The notes: generated by a model from the sequence alone, not told the origin. DNA of 64,000 nucleotides from Rhodoluna sp. KAS3 (GCF_026000575.1 NZ_AP026910.1:868001-932000); one strand, 5' to 3'; counted from the first letter of the stretch, positions 17,453 through 25,372 are shown. Translations and numbers: made by a program.

Positions 17453-18199
17453 ATGAGTAAATCTTCAAACTTCAAAGTTGAGATCTGGATCGTGCTAGCC
17501 CTGAGTTTAGGAGCCTCGGCTGTTTACTCAACTGTCTCGCTGATCAACAAACTGACTGCTCCATCAGGCCTAGCTGGTCAGACCACCAGCATCAACCCAT
17601 CTCTGGCGCGGGCCGAGTGGCTTGATTTCACCTATCAAATTCTGGGAATCACGTTTGGTTTGGCGCCGGTTGCGCTGGCCTTGTATTTGGTTTGGCAATC
17701 TGATGGAAACCCGCTCAAACGCCTTTCGCTAACTTTCGAAAAACCATCCTTTTGGATTACTCGAGGCTTGGGCCTAGCTGCACTTATTGGGATACCTGGA
17801 ATCGGCCTTTACGTAGCTGCTCGACTATTGGGGCTTTCCAGCAAAATCCTGCCCGCCGAGCTGCCGGATTACTGGTGGGTTGTCCCGGTGCTTCTCTTGG
17901 CCGCAGTCAAAGCTGCCGTGCTTGAAGAAGTCATAGTGGTTGGATTCTTATTCGACCGTCTCGAAAAAATTGGTTTTAGTTGGGCTAAACAGCTATGGAT
18001 TAGTTCGATCCTTCGAGCCAGCTACCACCTTTACCAAGGTTTTGGCGGTTTTGTCGGCAACTTGGTTATGGGGTTAGTTTTCGGACTCGCCTACAAAAAA
18101 TGGGGTCGCCTAACACCCTTGGTCGTGGCGCACTTTTTGCTAGATGCGATTTCTTTTGTTGGCTTTGCACTAATCGGTAACAATCTGCCGCTGCCGTAG
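17453..18199 (+). CDS. CPBP-family intramembrane protein (Abi/CAAX protease-like)
   Basis: This 248-residue membrane protein has about seven hydrophobic helices. CPBP motifs are present in order: motif 1 with paired glutamates LEEVIVVGFL, motif 2 with SYHLYQG, and motif 3 HFLLDA. The arginine that normally follows the glutamate pair (EExxxR) is not seen; Gly takes its place. Family members act as membrane proteases or have unknown roles such as bacteriocin self-immunity. The gene is divergent from typA. Nothing links it functionally to the riboswitch operon that begins three bases after its stop. Confidence 0.75.
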   Translation: MSKSSNFKVEIWIVLALSLGASAVYSTVSLINKLTAPSGLAGQTTSINPSLARAEWLDFTYQILGITFGLAPVALALYLVWQSDGNPLKRLSLTFEKPSFWITRGLGLAALIGIPGIGLYVAARLLGLSSKILPAELPDYWWVVPVLLLAAVKAAVLEEVIVVGFLFDRLEKIGFSWAKQLWISSILRASYHLYQGFGGFVGNLVMGLVFGLAYKKWGRLTPLVVAHFLLDAISFVGFALIGNNLPLP

Positions 18200-18201
18200 A
18201 G

Positions 18202-18344
18202 CTGTCGCAGGCAAGACTGCTACATTTGACGCAGTTGCCCTAAACCAGCAACCCTTTTGCCTAGAGCAGGGAAAGTCCGGTGAGAATCCGGCGCTGACCC
18301 GCAACCGTAAGCCTTTTTGGTAAGTCGGAATGCCTGCCTGACAG
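18202..18344 (+). promoter_or_regulatory. Cobalamin (B12) riboswitch aptamer
   Basis: The conserved adenosylcobalamin-aptamer core is present: the GGGAAnnnnGGTGAGAATCC-like segment (18269-18290), then GCGCTGACCCGCAACCGTAAGC, then AAGTCGGAATGCCTGCC. A closing P1 stem pairs 18202-18213 (ctgtcgcaggca) with 18331-18344 (tgcctgcctgacag), with a two-base bulge. It begins directly after the upstream stop codon and controls the five-gene operon from 18445. Ligand choice (adenosyl versus other cobalamins) cannot be read by eye. Confidence 0.93.
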
Positions 18345-18398
18345 CAATTGACTCCTTATTCACCGTCGAGGTCTACGGTCGGAGTCGAATGGTTCCAT

Positions 18399-18438
18399 AC
18401 CTTTCGTCTTCGCATTCAGATCGCATAAAGCGAAAGGT
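18399..18438 (+). promoter_or_regulatory. Riboswitch expression platform: Shine-Dalgarno-sequestering hairpin
   Basis: The eight bases acctttcg (18399-18406) are a perfect complement of cgaaaggt (18431-18438), which contains the AAAGG ribosome site of the ATG at 18445. No T-tract follows, so control is predicted to be translational. A second hairpin (gactcc 18350-18355 with ggagtc 18381-18386) lies between the aptamer and this stem and may take part in switching. Confidence 0.75.
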
Positions 18439-18444
18439 TTCAAA

Positions 18445-19431
18445 ATGTTTGGAACTAAATCTGGATTGCGCAAACTTGTTGCAATCACATCAATAACCGC
18501 CACACTTTCACTCGTTGCGCCAACAGCGGCAGTTGCGGCTCCCCCATACCAAACCACCGTTTCATACCTGAGCGGCAAGTTTGTGAGCGGAAAATATCTG
18601 GCCGGCTTCAGCGCAGGTTCGAAAGATTTTGGCATGTCGATCGAGGCCTTGCTTCAGCTGAATGCTGGCGGGCATGATCTGGCCAAACTGGGCTCCAAGG
18701 CACAGTACCTGCTCAACACAAAATCTGTGGTCGGTGACGTTGTTGCCCGAACGGGATATGTCTTCAACACCGATGCCAACAAGACCCTAAATGTTGGCTT
18801 GGCTGGCAAGTACCTGTTTGTATCACGAGCACTTGAAGTGCCAGCTGAGTATTTGCAGTATCAGATCTTCAAGGAGCTGAAGACCCGAATTGCTGCCGAC
18901 GGCACCGTCTACGGTGCAACCAACGACTTTGACTATGCCTGGGTTGCTTTGGGTTTGAACGCCTACCTCGAGCACACACTGGCGAACAAAGTAATTCAAA
19001 AGCTGATCACTCGCCAAAACACAGATGGCGGCTTTAGCTCGTACGGAACCGCCAGCTCGGCTGACGCCACCGGCCTTGCACTGCAGGCACTGTCACTCCG
19101 CCGCTGGTTCGGCAACGCCACAGAAGACAAAGCTCGTTCGACAGCAATTGGCAAGGCGCTTAGCTATGTCCGTAAAACCGACTCTGGCGACAGCCACATT
19201 GAGTCCGATTACGGATACGACGTCAACGGCACGGCATACGTGGCAATGGGACTGAAGGCTGCCGGCAAACTAGAGGAGGCTAAGCCTTACCGAATCTGGC
19301 TGAAATCTAAGCTGGCCTCGACCGGCGGATTCACCGTGCCATGGAGCTCTGGCAGCGCTGACGTGATGGCCACTTCTCAGGCATACGTACCGCTGATTGC
19401 CAAGAGCTACCTAGATCTACTTACCGACTGA
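18445..19431 (+). CDS. Secreted alpha/alpha-toroid protein, predicted cobalamin-binding (intrinsic-factor-like alpha domain)
   Basis: This 328-residue protein has a Sec signal peptide (basic start, hydrophobic core, cleavage predicted after AVAA at residue 32) and no later membrane helix. The mature part is a series of helical repeats of the prenyltransferase/squalene-cyclase kind, with turn motifs such as DGGFSSYGTASSADATGLAL and SADVMATSQAY. The same alpha6/alpha6 toroid forms the alpha domain of transcobalamin and intrinsic factor. It is the first gene behind a cobalamin riboswitch and is three bases from the next gene, so extracellular B12/corrinoid binding is inferred. A carbohydrate or polymer-binding toroid is the alternative. 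Confidence 0.72.
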   Translation: MFGTKSGLRKLVAITSITATLSLVAPTAAVAAPPYQTTVSYLSGKFVSGKYLAGFSAGSKDFGMSIEALLQLNAGGHDLAKLGSKAQYLLNTKSVVGDVVARTGYVFNTDANKTLNVGLAGKYLFVSRALEVPAEYLQYQIFKELKTRIAADGTVYGATNDFDYAWVALGLNAYLEHTLANKVIQKLITRQNTDGGFSSYGTASSADATGLALQALSLRRWFGNATEDKARSTAIGKALSYVRKTDSGDSHIESDYGYDVNGTAYVAMGLKAAGKLEEAKPYRIWLKSKLASTGGFTVPWSSGSADVMATSQAYVPLIAKSYLDLLTD

Positions 19432-19433
19432 GC

Positions 19434-19970
19434 ATGCCAAAAGGCTTAGTGCTGACCCTAGGCCTACTGCTAGCCGCAGTAGGCCTATTCGGGGTCCTCT
19501 CGAAAAACCCAGCATCCACGCCAGCACCTGAATCGAGCGCTGTCAGCAGTGGGCCGTGCCTGGATTCTGGGGTGACTCTAGTGATTGATTTTGGGTCTGA
19601 ATCAGCTCTGGAAAGCAAAGTTTCATGCCTACAAGATTTTGCGGGCAATGGCTGGCAATTGCTAGAAGAAGCTGATTTGGCACCAACCGGAACAAGTCAA
19701 TACCCAGCAGCGTTTGTTTGCCGCATCGGCGGATGGCCTACCGAAACTGCACAGGATTGCCTTGACACCCCCAGCTATCAAGAAGGCACCTGGGTTTACT
19801 TCAAATCTCTAGCCGGTGAGTGGGTCAGAAGCGGACAGGGTGCAGCCGACCCGAACAATCGAGTTGCCTGCGGAGCGGCGGAGGGCTGGGTGTTCATCAC
19901 GCCGAACACACCTAAATCCGAGCAATCACCATCGGCGTCCGTTCCAGAACTTACCTGTGCCACCAAATAG
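19434..19970 (+). CDS. Membrane-tethered six-cysteine protein, transcobalamin C-terminal (DUF4430)-like
   Basis: This 178-residue protein has one N-terminal hydrophobic segment (residues 4-22), then a Ser/Pro/Ala linker and an extracytoplasmic domain. Six cysteines (42, 65, 96, 109, 146, 175) suggest three disulfides. The order GTWVYFKSLAGEWVRSGQGA followed by GWVFI resembles the DUF4430/transcobalamin beta-domain pattern. With the preceding toroid protein it would make up both domains of a transcobalamin-type binder, split over two genes. Family assignment is by pattern only and needs a profile search. Spacing is 2 bases after the upstream stop and 3 before ecfT. Confidence 0.6.
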   Translation: MPKGLVLTLGLLLAAVGLFGVLSKNPASTPAPESSAVSSGPCLDSGVTLVIDFGSESALESKVSCLQDFAGNGWQLLEEADLAPTGTSQYPAAFVCRIGGWPTETAQDCLDTPSYQEGTWVYFKSLAGEWVRSGQGAADPNNRVACGAAEGWVFITPNTPKSEQSPSASVPELTCATK

Positions 19971-19973
19971 GCC

Positions 19974-20927
19974 ATGTTCAAGACTTTGACCGCACAGGTA
20001 CACCCCGGAGTTTGGTGGCTACTTGGCCTGTCCTTTGCCGTCGCAGCAAGCTTGCAGGACTTTTGGCTCCCGCTTGCAATTATTTGCCTGACAGCCGTTG
20101 CCCTCGCATCTGCTGGAGCCGCCGAAAACGCAGTGCGGCAAACCCTTCGGCTCTACCTAATCCTGGCAATCCTGGTGGTTTTAGTCAGAGTTTCTTTTCG
20201 AGTTATTTTCAATTTTCCAGACCCCACTAAACCGGTCTTTTTGAACCTTCCTCTAATCAACCTAGATCTAGGATTTGGCACGGTTACCTCGCTCTTCGGG
20301 CCGGTATCGCTGGCGTCAATTACTTCAGGCCTCACCGATGGCTTGCGACTGGCAGCGATAATCCTGGCCGTGGCCATGGCAAACAGCTTGGCCAACCCAA
20401 AACGACTTTTGAAGAGCACGCCGGCAGCACTCTACGAGCTGGCCACAGCAGCCGTAGTGGCGATTAATCTTGCGCCGCAGCTTATTTCAAGCCTCCAGCG
20501 AGTCAGAAAAGCTCGCGAGCTGAGAGGGCGAAGTCGAAAAGTTACCGCACTGACTGGCACGATTATTCCGGCGCTGGAAGACACGATTGACAGCTCTCTA
20601 GATTTGGCAGCAAGCATGGCATCCCGAGGTTTCGGAAGGCGTGGGCCAGTGCCAGCTGTTCAGCTACGGCAGACCCGTCTCCTAACATTGACAGCGCTGG
20701 TTGCGATGATTTTTGCCATTTTCTCGATGCTGAGTGTTGGGCTGAGCGACCTGGTAACCCCAATTAGCTTTTTTATCGCCTTGATAGCCAGTCTTACCTC
20801 AGTGAAACTTGCTTCGCGACACGGAGTTAGAACTCGATTTCGAGTCCACGCCTGGGCAGCAGCTGATTTTGCAATCATGGGCCTGAGCGCCTCCATAGTC
20901 TTCGTTGGCTTCTGGTTTGGAGGCTAA
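19974..20927 (+). CDS. ecfT: ECF transporter transmembrane component EcfT (CbiQ family)
   Basis: EcfT couples the two ATPases to the substrate-binding S subunit in energy-coupling-factor importers. The 317-residue protein has hydrophobic helices at the start and end and a cytoplasmic coupling region with the Arg-containing signatures RKARELRGR and SMASRGFGRRG (about 185-225), the hallmark of CbiQ/EcfT. It sits between the predicted binder genes and the ATPase gene, with a few bases or overlap on each side, and belongs to the B12-regulated operon. Confidence 0.85.
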   Translation: MFKTLTAQVHPGVWWLLGLSFAVAASLQDFWLPLAIICLTAVALASAGAAENAVRQTLRLYLILAILVVLVRVSFRVIFNFPDPTKPVFLNLPLINLDLGFGTVTSLFGPVSLASITSGLTDGLRLAAIILAVAMANSLANPKRLLKSTPAALYELATAAVVAINLAPQLISSLQRVRKARELRGRSRKVTALTGTIIPALEDTIDSSLDLAASMASRGFGRRGPVPAVQLRQTRLLTLTALVAMIFAIFSMLSVGLSDLVTPISFFIALIASLTSVKLASRHGVRTRFRVHAWAAADFAIMGLSASIVFVGFWFGG

Positions 20928-20928
20928 T

Positions 20929-22512
20929 GTGATCAAGACTTCAAACCTGACCCTTGGGTATAAATCGAGCGAGACTCCGATCCTAAGAAATGTCAACCTA
21001 TCCGTTGCTGCTGGCGAGATGGTTTTGGTTTGCGGCCCCACCGGGAGCGGAAAATCAACACTCCTGAAGTGCCTTAACTCACTAGCCCCTGCATTCACCG
21101 GAGGGACTCTCACCGGGTCGGTCTCAATCGACGGACAAATCACCTCTGGAGCCGCTCCCCACGAAATTGCTCACCTGGTTGGCTATGTGAACCAGCAGCC
21201 AGAAGGTGGGTTTGTGTCTGAAACAGTTGAGGATGAGCTGGTTTTCGGCATGGAGCAACTAGGTGTTACGCCAGCTGAAATGGCCAGCAACCTTGCTCGG
21301 GTGGCCGAGATTTTTGATCTTGCTGCGGTTCTGGATCGACGACTCAGTGAGCTTTCGGGTGGGCAACAGCAAAAAGTCGCTATCGCCGCCGCTGTTGCAG
21401 CAGGCCAAAAGGTTCTGTTGCTAGATGAACCGACCTCAGCGCTTTCACCGTCGACAGCAGCCGAGTTGCTGTCCCTTCTAAAAAAACTGAGCACCGATGA
21501 GGGCATCACGGTGATTCTCGTTGAACATCGAATCGAACGGGTGCTTGAGTTAGTTGATTCCGTGGTCATGGTGCACGGTGACGGTTCAGTGACCCAGGGC
21601 GACAAAACAACCCAATTCAGCGACTCCAGATGCGCCCCGCCGCTCATCGAACTAAGTCAAAAACTGGGATGGGCCCCGGTGGCCACCGACGTCTCAGAGG
21701 CACGAAATCACTGGCGTGAATCCAATCCGAAATTCCGCCCTCGTGTTGCTCTGAAACCTCATCCAGAAATTGCCCTGAGCGTCCGCGAGCTCGATGTCAA
21801 TTACGGTAGTGAAGCCGCCGTATCAGGAGTCACTTTTGACCTGCCGTTCGGCTCCATCTCGGCTCTGATGGGGCAAAACGGAGCGGGAAAAACCAGCCTG
21901 GTTAGCGCTATCAGGGATCCGAAATTAATCTCTTCCGGAACAGTGATTTTGGGTGAGCGCAGCACCACCGACCTGTCGTTGCAAGAGCTGCTTCGAGCAG
22001 TGACCATGGTTCCGCAGAAGGCCTCTGACCTGCTTTTTCTGAATTCGATCGGTAAGGAGTTGCAGGAGTCCGACAATTTCGGCGGGCTTTCGGCAGGATC
22101 AACAGCCCGTTTGCTGACTAGATTGAACGGCAGACTGGACCCTAATCAGCACCCTCGAGACCTCTCAGCTGGACAAAAACTTTCGTTAGTTCTGGCCATG
22201 CAGTTGGCCAATGGGGCGCGTGTCCTACTGCTAGACGAGCCGACTCGTGGTCTCGACTATTTTGCCAAGCGCCAACTGGCCGAACAGTTAAAGTCACTGC
22301 AAGTCTCGGGTGCATGCATCTTGGTGGCTTCGCATGACGTGGAGTTTATTGCTCAAATCGCCGACCGCGTGCTCCTCTTAGATCAGGGCAAACTTATCCA
22401 GGACTGCGCTCCCGAAGACCTGCTTGGATTTCAAAAACCATTCGAAACTCAAATTGCGCAGGTCTCAGAATCGCCCGACCTCATTTCAATTAGTCAGGTG
22501 GTCGAACTCTGA
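20929..22512 (+). CDS. ecfA: ECF transporter fused ATPase (EcfA-EcfA')
   Basis: Two ABC ATPase domains lie in one 527-residue chain. Domain 1 has GPTGSGKST, LSGGQQQKVAIA and VLLLDEPTS. Domain 2 has GQNGAGKTS, the altered signature LSAGQKLS and VLLLDEPTRGLD. It energises import with EcfT and the S subunit. The start chosen is GTG at 20929 because a GGAGG lies 5 bases before it and the protein then begins at the usual ABC beta-strand. An upstream ATG (20905) would overlap ecfT. The stop overlaps the next ATG (TGATG). Confidence 0.9.
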   Translation: MIKTSNLTLGYKSSETPILRNVNLSVAAGEMVLVCGPTGSGKSTLLKCLNSLAPAFTGGTLTGSVSIDGQITSGAAPHEIAHLVGYVNQQPEGGFVSETVEDELVFGMEQLGVTPAEMASNLARVAEIFDLAAVLDRRLSELSGGQQQKVAIAAAVAAGQKVLLLDEPTSALSPSTAAELLSLLKKLSTDEGITVILVEHRIERVLELVDSVVMVHGDGSVTQGDKTTQFSDSRCAPPLIELSQKLGWAPVATDVSEARNHWRESNPKFRPRVALKPHPEIALSVRELDVNYGSEAAVSGVTFDLPFGSISALMGQNGAGKTSLVSAIRDPKLISSGTVILGERSTTDLSLQELLRAVTMVPQKASDLLFLNSIGKELQESDNFGGLSAGSTARLLTRLNGRLDPNQHPRDLSAGQKLSLVLAMQLANGARVLLLDEPTRGLDYFAKRQLAEQLKSLQVSGACILVASHDVEFIAQIADRVLLLDQGKLIQDCAPEDLLGFQKPFETQIAQVSESPDLISISQVVEL

Positions 22513-23288
22513 TGAAATTCAAACACCAAGCCATGAGAGCCCTGACTCTGTCACTCGCTGCCGTGGCGGCGCTGATGATGTTTACCTGGCCACTGGTTAT
22601 CGGGGTAACTGCCCAGAGTGAAGCTGAAATTGCCCAGACAGCATTTTTGGTACTGATGCCACTGGTTCTTGTTTTGCTACTGATCGAATTTTCAACCGGC
22701 GGAATCGATGCCCGACAAATTGCCCTCTTAGGCGTTCTAACTGCGCTCAATGCTGTGATTCGCATGCTGGGCGCCGGAACCGCCGGCGTGGAGACAGCAT
22801 TTTTTCTCATCATTATCGCTGCCTACGTTTTTGGGCCAAGTTTTGGATTTCTCTTCGGAGCGCTGTCGCTGCTGGTTTCAGGACTGCTCACGGGCGGTAT
22901 TGGCCCGTGGTTACCGTTTCAAATGATGGCCGCTGCCTTGGTTGGACTAGCAGCTGGTGCATTGCCAAAAGTAAGCCGAACTTGGCTCCAATTCCTGATG
23001 CTTTGCGGGTACGCATTCGTCGCCAGTTTTTTCTATGGCGGATTGATGACCCTTTGGAATTGGCCATTTCTTGCCGGAACTGGGACTTCAATCTCGTATG
23101 TAGCCGGTGCGAGCCTCATCGAGAACCTAACCAGATTCGTTCAGTATGAACTCTTCACCGGTGGTCTGATATGGGACTTTGGTCGAGCGATAACTACATC
23201 AGTTTTGATCTTGTTAACGGCACCAGCCCTGCTGGCCACTCTGAATCGAGCAGCAAACAGGGCTGGTTTTGTGAAGCTACCGGATTAG
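22512..23288 (+). CDS. ECF transporter S component, predicted cobalamin/corrinoid specificity
   Basis: This hydrophobic 258-residue protein has about six to seven helices and an ECF S-component-like core (LLGVLTALNAVIRML, FGPSFGFLFGALSLLVSGLL). The S unit binds the substrate in the membrane. Cobalamin as substrate is inferred from the riboswitch at the head of the operon and from the upstream binder-like proteins; the sequence itself does not tell the ligand. The last four bases overlap the convergent doxX-like gene. Confidence 0.78.
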   Translation: MKFKHQAMRALTLSLAAVAALMMFTWPLVIGVTAQSEAEIAQTAFLVLMPLVLVLLLIEFSTGGIDARQIALLGVLTALNAVIRMLGAGTAGVETAFFLIIIAAYVFGPSFGFLFGALSLLVSGLLTGGIGPWLPFQMMAAALVGLAAGALPKVSRTWLQFLMLCGYAFVASFFYGGLMTLWNWPFLAGTGTSISYVAGASLIENLTRFVQYELFTGGLIWDFGRAITTSVLILLTAPALLATLNRAANRAGFVKLPD

Positions 23289-23820: not shown

Positions 23821-24213
23821 ATGGAAATCAAGGCACTTTGCGAACGCCAGGATGACGGCTGGTTGATTGCCGTGCCGGAACTCGGCAACTTTAAGACCAC
23901 TGCCAAGCGCCTGGATAAGGCAACCGAGCAAATCAAACTGCTTGCCGAGCAAACCACCGGCGAGTCCAAGTGCGACATCGTGGTCAAGGTTGAAGCGGTT
24001 ATGCCTGGAATCATCTGCGACATCGAATCAGCTCAAGCAAAAATGCGCGAGGCAACCCGCCTTCAAGAAGAAGCTTCTAACGAGATTCGCGATGTGGTCG
24101 GACGCATGCGTGATCGCGGCTTGACGATGCGAGACATCGCAGTGTTGCTTGGAGTTACACCTCAGCGCGTGGCTCAATTGGCGCCTTGCACCGAAGAATC
24201 AGTAGTCGCCTAG
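23821..24213 (+). CDS. HicB-like domain protein with C-terminal helix-turn-helix (orphan)
   Basis: The N-terminal half of this 130-residue protein has the HicB-type pattern (CERQDDGWLIAVPELGNFKT, then TTAKRLDKATEQI). The C-terminal half has a helix-turn-helix-like segment (GLTMRDIAVLLGVTPQRVAQL). HicB proteins are antitoxins or repressors of HicA toxins. No HicA-like small basic protein is encoded on either side, so it is an orphan and may act simply as a DNA-binding regulator. An AGGAG lies before the ATG. It converges with the next gene without a gap. Confidence 0.65.
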   Translation: MEIKALCERQDDGWLIAVPELGNFKTTAKRLDKATEQIKLLAEQTTGESKCDIVVKVEAVMPGIICDIESAQAKMREATRLQEEASNEIRDVVGRMRDRGLTMRDIAVLLGVTPQRVAQLAPCTEESVVA

Positions 24214-24956: not shown

Positions 24957-25002
24957 GCGCTATGGGATGACTCGTAGCTTCTTGCCGAAACAAAAGCCTG
25001 AG

Positions 25003-25372
25003 TGGAGATGGGGGGAATTGAACCCCCGTCCAATACAGAGTTTCTGACTCTTCTACGGGTGTAGCTTCAATAAGGTTCTACTCGGCCCCGGCACTAGCTT
25101 GAAGCGACATATCCGACGGGCCCAGCCAAAGTGAAAGTCCCGAGCAGCCCTTAGGCACAACTACTCAGCAAGATCTCTAAATGACGCTAGGGTTCAGAAC
25201 GAAATCAAATCTGATCTAACGGACTTCGGGGCTAGCGCTATTAAGCAGCTAGGGCGAAGTCGGTGCGTGATGATTTAGCACCTATAGTTTGCAGCGGACA
25301 TTAACGAGTTGACGCTACATTCTCGACCCGCTTCTTCCAGTTACACATGCACTGTCGAAACCGATCATCCCC
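25003..25372 (-). ncRNA. ssrA: Transfer-messenger RNA (tmRNA)
   Basis: On the minus strand the 5' end is GGGGATGATCGGTTTCGACAG and the 3' end is a T-arm with CATCTCCA. The two ends pair as a tRNA-like acceptor (GGGGATG with CATCTCC). The tag frame is complement(25241-25279), starting at a GCT resume codon after TATAGGT and reading AKSSRTDFALAA then TAA. CCA is not encoded. tmRNA and SmpB (gene immediately upstream) rescue stalled ribosomes and tag the product for proteolysis. Confidence 0.96.

Follow-up and report, generated by a model that had tools for sequence, protein, structure and literature searches.

The operon described here, in a 64,000-nucleotide stretch of the Rhodoluna sp. KAS3 genome (hereafter the window; bases 868001-932000 of the 1,338,021-base genome, which is one contig), very likely imports a corrinoid. 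It consists of a cobalamin riboswitch and five genes, encoding a toroid protein (TOR), a small beta protein (BETA) and a complete energy-coupling factor (ECF) module made of EcfT, two ABC ATPase domains and an S component (Table 1). The explanation that we consider probable as a whole is a corrinoid uptake operon in which TOR and BETA form a clamp that feeds the ECF importer; the two-protein clamp itself, which rests on analogy with the animal B12 carriers, seems reasonably likely. The gene order, the riboswitch, both folds, the ECF module, the pattern of B12 dependence and the conservation among relatives were all obtained by computation.

A riboswitch-led operon for corrinoid uptake

The five open reading frames (ORFs) called on the window lie on one strand and nearly touch, with a spacing of at most 4 nt or an overlap, and the curated Pfam cut-offs are exceeded by EcfT (CbiQ, 33 bits), EcfA-A' (ABC_tran, twice) and S (ECF_trnsprt, 36 bits). 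An earlier interpretation made from the DNA alone, referred to below as the sequence-only reading, had placed a cobalamin riboswitch ahead of five abutting genes and had named the last three as EcfT, fused EcfA-A' and an S component; the recomputed ORFs confirm its gene positions, the Pfam matches confirm these three identities, and the riboswitch is confirmed by two Rfam models and by its conservation in congeners. The RF01689 (AdoCbl-II) model matches with 34.0 bits (E 2e-6 on 401 bases), just below its gathering score of 36.5, and RF00174 with 29.6 bits (whole-genome E 5.6e-6), the sole RF00174 match in the genome; an Rfam scan of the full window at gathering thresholds did not pick it up. 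In 16 of 18 congeneric loci the riboswitch scores above the gathering score, always just upstream of the operon and on the same strand. Exactly one RF00174-type match each was found in 18 of 25 genus genomes (40 genomes were scanned in all), and it adjoins the operon by coordinates in 17 of those 18, the match in G017 not being placeable (G and L numbers denote genomes and loci of relatives, respectively). Four of five genomes from other families (G036, G039, G045 and G048) likewise have it directly upstream. The cobalamin riboswitch is real and slightly atypical.

Table 1. Features of the operon in window coordinates.
Feature	Position	Strand	Remarks
Cobalamin riboswitch aptamer, AdoCbl-II class	18258..18343	+	RF01689; RF00174 model covers 18216-18355
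Leader hairpin (GACTCC...GGAGTC), 3' of aptamer	18350..18392, ends approximate	+	Nearly invariant in 5 congeners
Predicted hairpin over TOR Shine-Dalgarno AAAGG	18406..18438	+	Consensus fold of 5 congeners
TOR	18445..19431	+	328 residues; secreted alpha/alpha toroid protein
BETA	19434..19970	+	178 residues; membrane-anchored, predicted transcobalamin-beta/DUF4430-like beta-grasp protein
EcfT transmembrane coupling protein, CbiQ family	19974..20927	+	317 residues
Fused EcfA-A' ATPase, two ABC_tran domains	20905..22512	+	535 residues; likelier start GTG 20929
ECF S component, putatively corrinoid-specific	22512..23288	+	258 residues

Folded from a single sequence, the leader gives a weak signal (z-score -1.75), and an alignment of five congeners was used instead, which folds into the aptamer, a second and near-invariant hairpin, and a hairpin that covers the Shine-Dalgarno sequence of TOR. 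Because of this last hairpin, translational control is the likely mode of action, the leader containing a putative translational expression platform. Promoter and terminator scans stayed near or below chance level and gave no usable signal. On the opposite strand beside the operon, several congeners carry a glycine riboswitch (L065:5934-6021, L069:6581-6668, L063:1688-1775 and L060:1462-1548).

The host, probably a freshwater actinobacterium of the Luna cluster, uses vitamin B12 and cannot make it, an auxotrophy pattern seen in the presence of MetH and a PduO-type adenosyltransferase and in the absence of CbiC from this genome and from all 24 other genus genomes searched. Among 13 genomes of other families, the S component is present in five of the six with a B12-binding domain and in none of the seven without one (Fisher p = 0.005), the exception among the B12 users being G043, which has a DUF4430 match. 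In G040 metH adjoins the BETA/Ecf/S operon (L207:4412-8044), and in G039 corrinoid salvage genes come after S (L079:8249-11394), namely cobU, in an ORF that matches metallo-beta-lactamase and CobU domains, and cobT. The corrinoid import proposed by the sequence-only reading is thus supported by the riboswitch, the auxotrophy pattern and the neighbouring corrinoid genes. The genome lacks any BtuC-type permease. At the G040 locus, EcfT, EcfA and S all match a single ORF of 1008 residues.

Two other importers were considered and rejected: BtuFCD, as the sole FecCD match in the genome is weak and falls on what looks like an ABC-3 permease of the zinc type, encoded next to an ATPase, and cobalt import, as S matches ECF_trnsprt rather than a CbiM family and markers of corrin synthesis are absent. 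The only other CbiQ match in the genome belongs to a three-gene locus elsewhere, which resembles BioYMN by eye, and the ECF module of the operon therefore appears dedicated.

Folds of BETA and TOR

Searches of Pfam, NCBIfam and the PDB by sequence found no match for BETA, and the PF14478 (DUF4430) model matches neither the window BETA, nor its homologs, nor any of 36 genus genomes. Because the BETA family is too divergent for such searches, structure prediction was needed. The AlphaFold model, built on an alignment of 47 relatives, is confident (predicted local distance difference test, pLDDT, 89.7), and a Foldseek search of the PDB placed 3u7z (prob 0.99) and human transcobalamin (7qbg_C, prob 0.98) together at ranks 1-3, with haptocorrin at rank 5, the other matches being unrelated or generic ubiquitin-like folds of probability 0.15 or less. 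The entry 3u7z, titled putative metal-binding protein and coming from Ruminococcus gnavus, is a DUF4430 crystal structure. As the Foldseek E-values are modest (0.02), the case for the fold rests on the specificity of the match list. Aligned by hhalign with 30 DUF4430 sequences, BETA gave 90 colinear columns with a P of 0.0028 and a probability of only 11%, the reversed, shuffled and unrelated controls all giving P of at least 0.35. Independent support comes from L210, a locus of a remote actinobacterial genome that belongs to a different class, where a true DUF4430 (68 bits) occupies the BETA slot in the order toroid, DUF4430, EcfAA and a related S component. These data support a predicted beta-grasp fold of the transcobalamin-beta/DUF4430 type for BETA, and the resemblance to DUF4430 and the transcobalamin C-terminus that had been noticed in the second protein is recovered by structure prediction and Foldseek, not by Pfam. 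The link of BETA to the membrane, read by eye, differs among relatives: an N-terminal helix in the genus, a lipobox in L143 and L078, and a C-terminal transmembrane segment in L076, L077 and L079.

The toroid seen by the sequence-only reading in the first protein is likewise upheld by structure prediction and Foldseek, not by Pfam: the AlphaFold model of TOR is a confident alpha/alpha toroid (pLDDT 92). A profile search matched squalene-hopene cyclase at 4e-30 and haptocorrin at E 0.009 over most of the length of TOR, and Foldseek listed cyclases at the top (6e-6), transcobalamin as significant (2e-4) and GH76 enzymes near 1e-3. Cyclases thus rank above transcobalamin; the modelled fold fits the transcobalamin alpha domain without singling that domain out. 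TOR has a Sec-type signal peptide by eye, in place of which several congeners carry a lipobox. Among the proteins compared within the genus, conservation is lowest for TOR (mostly 25-52% identity) and highest for S (55-69%).

Distribution and variants of the operon

Scanned with the S profile, GTDB r220 yielded at least 576 loci, the closest named ones belonging to Rhodoluna and to metagenome-assembled genomes of other Microbacteriaceae/Micrococcales. We kept 54 loci, fetched via their S component, that lie outside the genus and have enough upstream sequence: EcfT is present in all 54, BETA in 52 and a toroid in at least 40 within about 9 kb, a count that does not demand a toroid inside the operon. 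A cobalamin riboswitch lies in the neighbourhood of six of the seven loci scanned and is operon-proximal in three. The form found in actinobacteria is widespread; some relatives combine BETA and the ECF module with no toroid. Micromonospora and its relatives have two tandem toroid-BETA pairs 5' of EcfT (L111, L138, L146, L147, L148, L152, L162 and L167). At the other end stands G013, in whose entire genome no toroid was detected: its variant (L075:2408-5021) has a riboswitch directly upstream of BETA, then an ORF with matches to EcfA as well as EcfT, and an S component without about the first 64 residues. G017 (L074:1-1273), on an incomplete contig that does not permit a judgement, probably has the same toroid-less variant.

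In some operons the BETA slot is filled by proteins of the SCO2322 family (NCBIfam NF040672), at L077:4691-5563, L079:4274-4999 and L080:4316-5344. The window BETA does not match NF040672, and congeners reach 24-36 bits against a cut-off of 85. Over the three proteins, a model of the C-terminal half of BETA matches ahead of a model of the N-terminal half (in L079 at 40-89 and 106-168), the half-models scoring 34-41 and 10-19 bits. Sharing the operon slot and the sequence halves of BETA, in swapped order, the SCO2322-family proteins look like its circular permutants, and permutation is known to be compatible with the beta-grasp fold (PMC1949818). We found no mention of SCO2322 in the open-licence papers searched.

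A proposed clamp and its alternatives

In transcobalamin, an alpha and a beta domain clamp cobalamin within one chain. From this precedent we infer the corrinoid as ligand, the TOR-BETA clamp and the hand-off to S. When adenosylcobalamin is scarce, the riboswitch would free the ribosome-binding site of TOR. TOR would then be secreted or lipid-anchored, with BETA tethered to the membrane by its N-terminal helix, and vitamin B12 or a precursor would be clamped between the mouth of the TOR toroid and the beta domain of BETA before being passed to the S component, ATP hydrolysis by EcfA-A' with EcfT presumably driving import. The sequence-only reading had put both carrier domains, as separate proteins, in front of an ECF importer; the two folds, the split and the importer all stand, while the toroid may be a corrinoid binder or another kind of toroid, cyclases outranking transcobalamin.

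Several results weigh against this explanation. BETA falls below every Pfam threshold, and its hhalign probability with DUF4430 is low; terpene/squalene cyclases rank above transcobalamin for TOR in both the profile and the Foldseek searches; among solved chains, the S component comes nearest to FolT (E 5e-6) and does not match CbrT; and six operons, that of G013 and five from other families (G036-G048), have BETA or the permuted form and no recognised toroid, so a clamp is not universally needed.

The alternative that survives best, which we consider unlikely, retains the corrinoid importer and lets BETA alone capture the ligand or dock on S, the toroid being otherwise employed, for instance in cell-wall attachment or in holding BETA. 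It would account for BETA being steadier than the toroid (52 against at least 40 of the 54 loci), for the combination of BETA and ECF in the toroid-less G013 and for the rank of the toroid nearer cyclases than transcobalamin, but it sits poorly with the toroid gene coming first behind the riboswitch in the genus, with its duplication together with BETA, as pairs, in Micromonospora, and with the fact that no B12-binding partner other than a toroid is known for this beta fold (PMC1796856). That the toroid works as an enzyme at the cell surface, acting as a terpene cyclase or on glycans and having nothing to do with B12, is improbable: class II terpene cyclases are its best fold and profile matches and GH76 enzymes match too, but the window TOR lacks the DxDD catalytic motif of class II terpene/squalene cyclases and is a secreted or lipid-anchored, fast-evolving protein encoded directly behind the riboswitch.

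The putative corrinoid specificity of S rests on context, as homology does not give the substrate: a profile search of the PDB with the S component found no chain, and a FolT-family model stays sub-threshold. The sequence-only reading had named clustering of S with non-corrinoid S components as evidence against it. The nearest solved relative is FolT, although weak similarity is found between S components whatever their substrate. Import of some other substrate, folate-like or another cofactor, with the riboswitch coupling the operon to methionine/B12 status, would fit that FolT match and is nonetheless the least probable alternative, given that the only cobalamin riboswitch of the genome is here, that S co-occurs with B12 users, that metH, cobU and cobT are neighbours in relatives and that BETA has a transcobalamin-like predicted fold.

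Relation to known systems

Uptake of B12 is poorly known for most Gram-positive bacteria, and the S subunit in the membrane is thought to be all that ECF systems rely on. If the TOR-BETA clamp is true, the operon encodes a carrier-assisted ECF importer, built from the two domains of transcobalamin and common to hundreds of actinobacterial species, including freshwater Luna-type bacteria, Streptomyces, Amycolatopsis and Micromonospora. It would also provide a substrate for a large unassigned S-component family and an annotation for the SCO2322 family, and would bear on the origin of the animal B12 carriers. More tentatively, a surface clamp of a toroid and a tethered, sometimes permuted beta-grasp protein, feeding the unassigned S component, might be a general actinobacterial system, an ECF importer that has its own extracellular complex for binding the substrate and is ancestral or parallel to those carriers.

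The central idea is a rediscovery, in divergent, split and actinobacterial form, of a prediction made in 2007, and the new concept implied by the sequence-only reading does not hold. Burroughs et al. (2007) reported fusions of SLBB domains with toroids in hosts that lack B12 synthesis, where the genes usually accompany those of CbiO and CbiQ, and proposed B12 scavenging for these proteins (PMC1796856). Their SLBB (DUF4430, PF14478) and toroid systems share with ours the two domains, the ECF-type ATPase with CbiQ, the predicted scavenging and the non-synthesising hosts. However, they were reported from low-GC Gram-positives, planctomycetes and euryarchaea, where the two domains are commonly fused into a single chain (PMC1796856), whereas the present operon is actinobacterial, encodes two proteins, has a beta domain that has diverged beyond the reach of the Pfam DUF4430 model, and adds a riboswitch and an S component. 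What is new here is this divergent actinobacterial beta branch outside DUF4430, the two-protein split, the breadth of the system and the permuted SCO2322 version in the same slot. We found no experimental work on TOR- or BETA-type proteins in the open-licence papers searched; such work may exist elsewhere.

Animal transcobalamin, intrinsic factor and haptocorrin also combine a toroid with a small beta-grasp domain, transcobalamin being a top match of BETA and significant for TOR, but they are single chains that use an endocytic receptor, whereas TOR and BETA are separate ORFs (the TOR stop precedes the BETA start), are anchored separately and serve an ECF importer. ECF-CbrT of Lactobacillus delbrueckii is an ECF complex that imports cobalamin (PMC5997447), as predicted here; it differs in that our S component has no CbrT sequence match and in that our ECF module looks dedicated and has extracellular partners. 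BtuG and BtuH of Bacteroides capture corrinoid at the surface before transport, as TOR and BETA are predicted to do, but BtuG is a beta-propeller, and both serve the outer-membrane BtuB systems of Gram-negatives, with a different importer (PMC6143338, PMC8941943).

Neighbouring genes

Directly 5' of the riboswitch lies a gene for a CPBP-family intramembrane protease (window 17453-18199), a position that it holds in some members of the genus only. Downstream, a conserved 130-residue protein of unassigned family (window 23821-24213) is found near the end of the operon in most congeners, and a tmRNA gene follows on the minus strand (window 25000-25372).

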